Assembly: GCF_003258315.1 (NCBI RefSeq) | Contig: NZ_CP030032.1 | Span: 3,598,501 to 3,662,500 of the forward strand | Reading direction: 5' to 3' | Source: Bradymonas sediminis | Lineage (GTDB): Bacteria; Myxococcota_A; Bradymonadia; Bradymonadales; Bradymonadaceae | DNA length: 64,000 nucleotides | Part shown: piece after piece, positions 13,262 through 15,740 of the stretch | Layout of the letters: every line of letters begins with the position of its first letter | Numbering within the stretch: the first letter of the stretch is position 1 | The notes under the pieces: generated by a model | What the model was told of the DNA's origin: nothing | The model's database searches: none | The model's input: only the letters and a program-made list of their open reading frames with translations | Made by a program: the position numbers and the translations under genes

Positions 13262-14128
13262 ATGAATACCGCCTTGCCGAACTCTTCGGGCGCCGCGAGT
13301 CGACTCGCGCGATTTGCCCGCCTCACCCTGGTGAGCCTCGTCATCCTGGGCGGGTGCGAGCGCCCCCAGCCCGGAGAGGAAGCCGAGCTCGCCGCGCAAT
13401 CGAGCAATGAGGAGTTGATGATCTTTGCGGCATCTTCGCTCACCGAGGCGTTTCACGAGATCGCCGACGCCTTCGAAAAAGAGCAGTCCGGCGTGGACGT
13501 CACCCTTCATTTCGCCGGCAGCCAGGCCCTGCGCACGCAGATCGAAAACGGCGCCCCCGCCGACGTCTTCGCCTCGGCGAACTCAAAGCATATGAGCGCC
13601 TTGCTCGCAAAAGACCTCGTCGGCGCGCCCGCCCTTTTTGCCCATAATCGCCTCGTGATCGTGACCCCGCCGGACAACCCCGCGGGCATCGCCTCCGCCG
13701 AAGACCTGCCCAAGGCCGAGCGCCTGGTCGTGGGCGCAGACGAGGTGCCCGTCGGCATGTATACCCAGGCGTTTTTGACCCGCGCCGCGAAATCCTTTGG
13801 CGGCGACTATCGCGAAAAAGTCGAACGCGATATTGTCTCGCGCGAGGCCAACGTCCGCCTGGTCCTCACCAAGGTGTCGATGGGCGAGGCCGACGCCGGC
13901 GTGGTCTATCGCACCGACGCTTTGCAGCGCGGCGAACAGGTGCATACGGTCGAAATCCCCGACGCGCTCAACATTCGCGCCGACTACCCCGTCGCGGTGC
14001 CTACGCAGAGCCCGCGCCCCGCGCTCGCTCAGCGGTGGATCGACTTCGTGCTCTCCGAACAAGGCCAAACGATATTGGCCAAACAAGGCTTCGGCGGCGC
14101 GACACAGGCTCCCGACAAGGCCCCCTGA
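13262..14128 (+). CDS. modA: Molybdate ABC transporter, substrate-binding lipoprotein
   Basis: Periplasmic receptor that captures molybdate or tungstate for the ModBC importer. The N-terminus has a basic stretch, a hydrophobic core and the lipobox LVILGGC, so it should be a membrane-anchored lipoprotein. The mature region opens LMIFAASSLTEAFHEIADAF, the ModA signature, and continues FAGSQALRTQIENGAPADVFASAN (oxyanion loop), LTKVSMGEADAGVVYRTDAL and a C-terminal SEQGQTILAKQGF. The 288-residue length is normal. It is followed after 56 bp by modB. Confidence 0.93.
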   Translation: MNTALPNSSGAASRLARFARLTLVSLVILGGCERPQPGEEAELAAQSSNEELMIFAASSLTEAFHEIADAFEKEQSGVDVTLHFAGSQALRTQIENGAPADVFASANSKHMSALLAKDLVGAPALFAHNRLVIVTPPDNPAGIASAEDLPKAERLVVGADEVPVGMYTQAFLTRAAKSFGGDYREKVERDIVSREANVRLVLTKVSMGEADAGVVYRTDALQRGEQVHTVEIPDALNIRADYPVAVPTQSPRPALAQRWIDFVLSEQGQTILAKQGFGGATQAPDKAP

Positions 14129-14184: not shown

Positions 14185-15021
14185 ATGTCCAGCCACACCC
14201 CCAAAAACTCAGCGACCAAGCCCGCGAGCCTGCTGGTGCGCGCGATGGCCGGCATCTTCCTGGTGTTTTTACTGCTCCCGTTGATCGCCATCGGCACCAC
14301 GACCACGCCCGCCGAAATACTCACCGCCCTCAAGGACCCGCTGGTCTGGCCGGCGGTGCGCATCAGCATCGTCACGACCGCCATCAGCTTCGGCATCACG
14401 CTGGCCTTCGGGACGCCGCTGAGCTGGCTGCTGGCGCGCAGCCGCTCGCGCTGGGCGCGCGCCTGCGAATCCCTGCTCGAATTACCCATCGTGCTGCCAC
14501 CGGCGGTCATCGGCGTAGCACTCCTGCTGGCCTACGGCCGCCGCGGTTGGCTGGGCGGTGTATTTGAGTCGCTGGGGTGGAGCCCCGGGTTTAGCCTCAG
14601 CGCGGTCATCTTCGCCCAATTGGTGGTCGCGGCGCCCTTTTTTATCCAATCGGCGACCGCGGCTTTTCGCCAGGTCGACGACGAATTACTCATCGTCGCG
14701 CGCACCCTGGGCGCCTCGCCGATGCGCACTTTCTTGCGCGTCGCGGTGCCGCTGGCGCTCCCCGGCCTGCTCAACGGCGCCGCGCTGATGTGGGCGCGGG
14801 CGCTGGGCGAATTTGGGGCGACGCTCTTCTTTGCCGGCAACTTGAGCGGGCGCACCCAGACGATGCCGCTGGCGATCTACGCCGCCCTGGAATCCGACCT
14901 GCGCGTCGCCCAGGCGATGTCCGTGCTGCTGGTCGCCGTGGCCATTCTGCTATTGAGCGCGTTGCGCGGCCCCATCGCCGCGAAATTCGGGCCGTATCGC
15001 CACAACGGAGAACTCCAATAG
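14185..15021 (+). CDS. modB: Molybdate ABC transporter permease
   Basis: Inner-membrane channel of the molybdate importer. It has about five or six hydrophobic helices, starting MAGIFLVFLLLPLIAIG. The family segments are IRISIVTTAISFGITLAFGTPLSWLLARS in two pieces, LPIVLPPAVIGVALLLAYG, and the EAA-type cytoplasmic loop around VARTLGASPMRTFLRVAVPLALPGLLNG in two pieces, followed by RALGEFGATLFFAGN. The start at 14185 is the ATG nearest to the conserved N-terminus; the frame itself opens earlier at 14035 inside modA. Its TAG stop (15019-15021) overlaps the presumed start of modC. Confidence 0.93.
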   Translation: MSSHTPKNSATKPASLLVRAMAGIFLVFLLLPLIAIGTTTTPAEILTALKDPLVWPAVRISIVTTAISFGITLAFGTPLSWLLARSRSRWARACESLLELPIVLPPAVIGVALLLAYGRRGWLGGVFESLGWSPGFSLSAVIFAQLVVAAPFFIQSATAAFRQVDDELLIVARTLGASPMRTFLRVAVPLALPGLLNGAALMWARALGEFGATLFFAGNLSGRTQTMPLAIYAALESDLRVAQAMSVLLVAVAILLLSALRGPIAAKFGPYRHNGELQ

Positions 15022-15740
15022 ACACCCTAAACGCAGATATCAGCGGTCGCGTCGGCCCCTTCGAGCTCAACCTCTCCCTGCATCTTCAGGGCCGCCCGCT
15101 CGCGCTCATCGGCCCCAACGGCGCGGGTAAAACGACCTGCCTGAAGATGCTGCTCGGGATCTATCGCCCGAGCGCCGGGCGCATCGAGGTCGGGCGGCGC
15201 GTGCTCTTCGACGCGCAGCAAAGTGTCGACCTCGCCCCCGAGGACCGCCGCCTCGGCTATATGCCCCAAAATTACGGCCTCTTTGACCATATGAGCGTCA
15301 CCGGCAATATCGCCTTCGGCATGAACTCCCTGGGAAAATCGAAGGTAGAAATCGCCCACCGCGTCCAGCAATTGCTCGCCGAACTCGACATCTCACACCT
15401 GGCCGAGCGCGCGCCCGCCTCGCTGTCCGGCGGCGAAAAACAACGCGTCGCCCTGGCCCGCGCGCTGGCGATTGACCCCTGCGCGCTGCTGCTGGACGAA
15501 CCCCTGGCCGCCCTCGACCGCGGCGCAAGGCGGCGCACCCGCGACTATTTGCGCGAGTACCTGGGGCAGCTGAATCTGCCCACCCTCATCGTCACCCACG
15601 ACCCCGCCGACGTGCACGCATTATGCGATCGCGTCGTCGCCATCGAGCGCGGCGCGCAGGTGCAGTGCGGCAGCGTCGAGCAATTTCGCAGGGCTCCTAA
15701 GACCCCCTTTTTACAGGACTTCTTTTGCCCCGACCTCTGA
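15018..15740 (+). CDS. modC: Molybdate ABC transporter ATPase with a non-standard start codon
   Basis: Energises the ModAB importer. It shows Walker A GPNGAGKTT, Q-loop YMPQNYGLFDHM, signature LSGGEKQRVALARAL, Walker B LLLDEPLAALD and switch histidine IVTHDP. No ATG, GTG or TTG lies in frame between the Walker A region and the preceding 76 codons, where the frame runs antiparallel in sense to nothing recognisable within modB. The best start is ATA at 15018, seven bases after GGAG and overlapping the modB stop as ATAG. The product would be about 240 residues and lacks the C-terminal MOP/TOBE domain of E. coli ModC. A sequencing error (ATG read as ATA) or a frameshift fusion with ModB are alternatives. 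Confidence 0.85.
   Translation: MDTLNADISGRVGPFELNLSLHLQGRPLALIGPNGAGKTTCLKMLLGIYRPSAGRIEVGRRVLFDAQQSVDLAPEDRRLGYMPQNYGLFDHMSVTGNIAFGMNSLGKSKVEIAHRVQQLLAELDISHLAERAPASLSGGEKQRVALARALAIDPCALLLDEPLAALDRGARRRTRDYLREYLGQLNLPTLIVTHDPADVHALCDRVVAIERGAQVQCGSVEQFRRAPKTPFLQDFFCPDL

Follow-up and report, generated by a model that had tools for sequence, protein, structure and literature searches.

In Bradymonas sediminis the gene for the ATPase of a molybdate transporter, modC, appears to begin with AUA, and the position of this start is well supported by the sequence. The codon ATA at 15018-15020 overlaps the stop codon of modB, TAG at 15019-15021, in the tetranucleotide ATAG (15018..15021, forward strand), and occupies the place at which relatives carry an ordinary start. 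All positions are those of the window, the whole stretch of 64,000 nucleotides that was analysed. The site is real and unusual and the claim made for it is modest: initiation at AUA is already documented in Staphylococcus aureus, and the unusual element is a -4 overlap that uses UAG. The reading that we consider probable is that an ancestral NTGA overlap became ATAG and that ribosomes terminating on modB reinitiate at AUA to produce ModC, probably at a low level.

The genome is a complete chromosome in a single contig (5.05 Mb, 61% GC, 99.81% complete). On the forward strand of the window, modA (13262..14128), which encodes the molybdate-binding protein (TIGR01256, E 6e-45, above cut-off), is followed by the permease gene modB (about 14185..15021; TIGR02141, 207.9 bits, above cut-off) and by modC (15018..15740), which encodes an ABC ATPase in 240 codons plus a stop (PF00005, E 1.4e-30). 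The assignment as ModC follows from the ABC ATPase motifs and from the location of the gene directly after modA and modB. Walker A, Q-loop, LSGGE signature, Walker B and H-loop are all kept and the coding signal is normal, in line with the original prediction that the gene is intact. TIGR02142 is still the best family match, at 197.5 bits vs a curated cut-off of 285 that it misses; the match stops at position 226 of 353, so that ModC lacks what the model has at its C-terminal end, as do the similarly short homologues in the alignment. ModB shares 50-58% identity with family relatives (nearest match in a wider contig scan, ~57%) and is unique in the genome, where the second-best match reaches merely 28%. 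Since there is no second close ModB, and since moaA and at least two molybdopterin oxidoreductases are also encoded, ModC should be useful or needed.

At its 3' end modB reads ...GGA GAA CTC CAA TAG, and across this stop the modC frame reads ATA GAC ACC CTA AAC GCA GAT ATC. In the modC frame no stop codon intervenes between a TAG at 14592 and the end of the gene at 15738-15740, and the nearest ordinary in-frame starts are GTG 14790, inside modB, and ATG 15147, 43 codons downstream of the ATA. A protein begun at ATG 15147 would lack Walker A, whose first codon is number 32. The sharing of two bases between ATA and the modB stop is as first described from the sequence, and so is the Shine-Dalgarno (SD) sequence, a typical GGAG at 15007..15010 with a spacer of 7 nt to the ATA. 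Ordinary starts had been said to be missing between the ATA and Walker A and from the 76 codons upstream; the first part stands, whereas upstream 75 codons are free and GTG 14790 lies exactly at the 76th. Start and stop codons thus have the spacing of a -4 overlap, with ATAG here in place of the NTGA, with its canonical start, of the relatives. Judged from sequence, modC is a candidate AUA-initiated gene: it is without a usable ATG, GTG or TTG and has AUA at the homologous start. No Rfam match to an RNA element and no tandem repeat were found at the junction.

A 3-periodic coding model was trained on 2.8 Mb of the genome plus the window (2.86 Mb, 57% of the genome), and for each open frame the shortfall between the best start allowed anywhere and the best ordinary start was calculated. 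modC ranked first among 2,038 model genes, with a shortfall of 12.0 nats, and its unconstrained start was placed at 15021, the codon right after the ATA. One infC gene, also without an ordinary start, served as a positive control and ranked 9th; the method is not exhaustive, because a second infC gene, with a shortfall of only 3.9, would be missed. Most of the other shortfalls above 5 resemble a weak coding signal at the N-terminus. Together, the homologous start position and the strongest coding-shortfall outlier confirm that the ATAG site is not due to chance. The same 57% of the genome contains 105 gene pairs with NTGA -4 junctions, 66 of which have an SD match of at least 4 nt, as at modC. 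It also contains seven other ATAA or ATAG junctions; all seven have an ordinary start within 4 codons, and a widespread use of AUA starts at the overlaps of this genome was rejected on that ground.

ABC ATPase matches to ModC were present in 39 of 39 genomes searched. The class-level comparison rests on 12 same-class relatives with a clear modB-modC pair (L008-L017, L020 and L021), whose ModC proteins are 43-51% identical to this one. Comparison of the junction in relatives had been put forward with the original prediction, and it returned ordinary starts at the same position, an outcome named beforehand as one that would speak for a sequencing error or a strain mutation: in 12 of 12, modC can start at a 4-nt NTGA overlap (ATG in seven, GTG in four, TTG in one). 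A wider set of 80 loci was found with ModB, in records titled Polyangiaceae, Planctomycetota, Chloroflexi, Streptomyces and others. An ABC ATPase motif lies close downstream of modB in 61 of them, and for 42 of these 61 a -4 overlap with ATG or GTG is possible; none has an ATA start. The two sets overlap to some degree, since one wider locus (L052) is apparently on the same contig as a class-level one (L011). When ModC is aligned with its relatives, the ATA-encoded residue is level with their N-termini or no more than a few residues away, and the N-termini can be aligned throughout the segment between the ATA and Walker A. With ordinary starts at this position in the relatives, the ATA represents a change in a single lineage; a conserved AUA start was rejected, as both class-level and wider relatives use ordinary starts. 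What survives of the predicted AUA start is therefore its position, marked by the homologous start, the 4-nt overlap, the SD and the coding change point at 15021, and not its conservation. Most of L008-L021 have 100-400 codons without a stop in the modC frame ahead of modC, within modB; this results from off-frame reading of GC-rich sequence and gives the false impression of a fusion. Candidate ModB-ModC fusions in relatives (open frames of 475-639 aa) were rejected as off-frame readings of GC-rich modB.

From these comparisons we infer a mutational path. The modB-modC junction would ancestrally have been a termination-reinitiation overlap of the NTGA type at -4 nt, and in this lineage the shared bases would have become ATAG with the modB stop kept in place, UGA giving way to UAG, perhaps via UAA. 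A change from UGA to UAA would retain the modB stop and at the same time convert AUG to AUA, because one base serves both as the third of the overlapping start and as the second of the stop codon; a later change from UAA to UAG would be silent for modB. The GGAG would keep ribosomes that have completed modB at the junction, where they would reinitiate with fMet-tRNA on AUA, yielding a ModC that begins MDTLNADISG..., at reduced yield. It is a counter-point to such reinitiation that the modC SD is just 4 nt. A further proposal goes beyond this and is tentative, even rather doubtful: that reinitiating ribosomes, being already placed, start efficiently on AUA at a UAG-type -4 overlap, that reinitiation relaxes the choice of start, and that drift of the stop can carry the start outside NUG.

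Termination-reinitiation at -4 overlaps is well documented, and gene pairs for the subunits of complexes are enriched at such overlaps (Huber 2019, PMC6728339; Huber 2023, PMC10666635). The modB-modC pair resembles these NTGA pairs in its geometry and frame relation, in an SD inside the upstream gene and in encoding subunits of one complex; unlike the published class, which is ATGA or GTGA, it has UAG as stop and AUA as start. AUA starts of infC, ccpN and citZ in S. aureus are demonstrated by ribosome profiling and reporters, with an activity of roughly 10% that of AUG, rising to 30% for ccpN, and with extended SDs at three non-canonical sites (PMC13009471). As there, an SD precedes the AUA of modC; in contrast, it has 4 nt where those of infC and ccpN are extended, and the AUA that it precedes overlaps a stop codon, a feature that the S. 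aureus starts are not known to share.

Like infC, with its AUU or AUC starts and autoregulation by IF3, modC has an AUH start codon; unlike infC it is a transporter gene, and the ordinary starts of its relatives give no hint of a conserved regulatory role for the AUA. Hecht and co-workers, in 2017, reportedly observed initiation from all 64 codons. The modC start would be expected to be sensitive to IF3, which in vitro disfavours weak third-position pairs (PMC10158994), a point against initiation at AUA. By analogy, the SD retained at the modC junction may matter, because reinitiation without an SD was inhibited by excess IF3 in E. coli (PMC2268962).

It is unlikely that the ATA is a sequencing or assembly error, with G as the true base at 15020, which would give ATGG, an ordinary ATG for modC and a modB that ends three codons later at TAA 15028-15030. 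A single base would suffice, relatives have ordinary starts, and a DUF6176 gene of this genome is likewise anomalous at a single codon, having an in-frame TAG, which also counts against reinitiation at AUA in that errors or decaying genes exist here. However, a true ATG would break the -4 geometry of all 12 relatives and shift the modB stop off its conserved position, where ATAG leaves it, and this makes a single error less likely; moreover, the genome is one contig at 99.81% completeness and, if the strain is B. sediminis FA350, was produced from Illumina plus PacBio data (PMC7460792), among which lone substitutions are uncommon. Quite unlikely, too, is a recent start-loss, in which the substitution is real, ModC is hardly made and the gene is either on its way to becoming a pseudogene or lost in this strain only. 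In the comparisons made, no other lineage shows the change, and a comparable lineage-specific AUA start exists, that of citZ in the S. aureus NCTC 8325 lineage, although it still gives some product (PMC13009471). Against a loss, the remainder of modC is intact in motifs and coding signal, two substitutions from NTGA are required, neither modA nor modB is damaged, and the genome encodes molybdenum enzymes. A ModB-ModC fusion would result from a -1 shift out of modB, which had been raised with the original prediction, or from slippage at the modB stop; the modC frame does lie at -1 to that of modB and continues open upstream, but this route is very improbable, for no phased X_XXY_YYZ slippery heptamer occurs from 14500 to 15021 (a classical site had already been noted as missing), the fold around the junction is unremarkable and no more stable than shuffles (z 0.23), and all relatives have their frames so related and yet give modC an ordinary start of its own. 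Other near-cognate codons in the modC frame, ATT 14985, ATC 15039 and CTG 15078, are scarcely credible as starts, since none is at the homologous position, no GGAG-like SD was seen at a proper distance upstream of them, and a start at CTG 15078 would remove conserved N-terminal sequence.

If the base is real and modC is expressed, reinitiation at AUA would make this junction one of the rare natural instances in which AUA initiation and termination are coupled. It would also provide a simple test, in a natural setting, of whether ribosomes are less strict about start codons just after terminating than when they start afresh. A gene such as modC can be missed or truncated by gene finders that insist on NTG, and surveys that assume NTG starts could overlook -4 overlaps in which the stop is UAA or UAG.

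Elsewhere in the chromosome there are two infC (IF3) genes, at G000:C1:2675685-2676185 (L125) and G000:C1:1016478-1016972 (L126), neither of which has an in-frame ATG, GTG or TTG at its beginning. One opens at ATT/ATC and the other at ATC, the apparent start codons, so that AUH initiation is plausibly available in this genome. Two full infC matches were also found in four other genomes of the family. The DUF6176 gene (G000:C1, about 2041843-2042116, minus strand), interrupted by its in-frame TAG and listed among the coding-model cases with a shortfall above 5, is either a decaying gene or a sequence error; its two halves jointly match PF19673 (E 1.6e-17).
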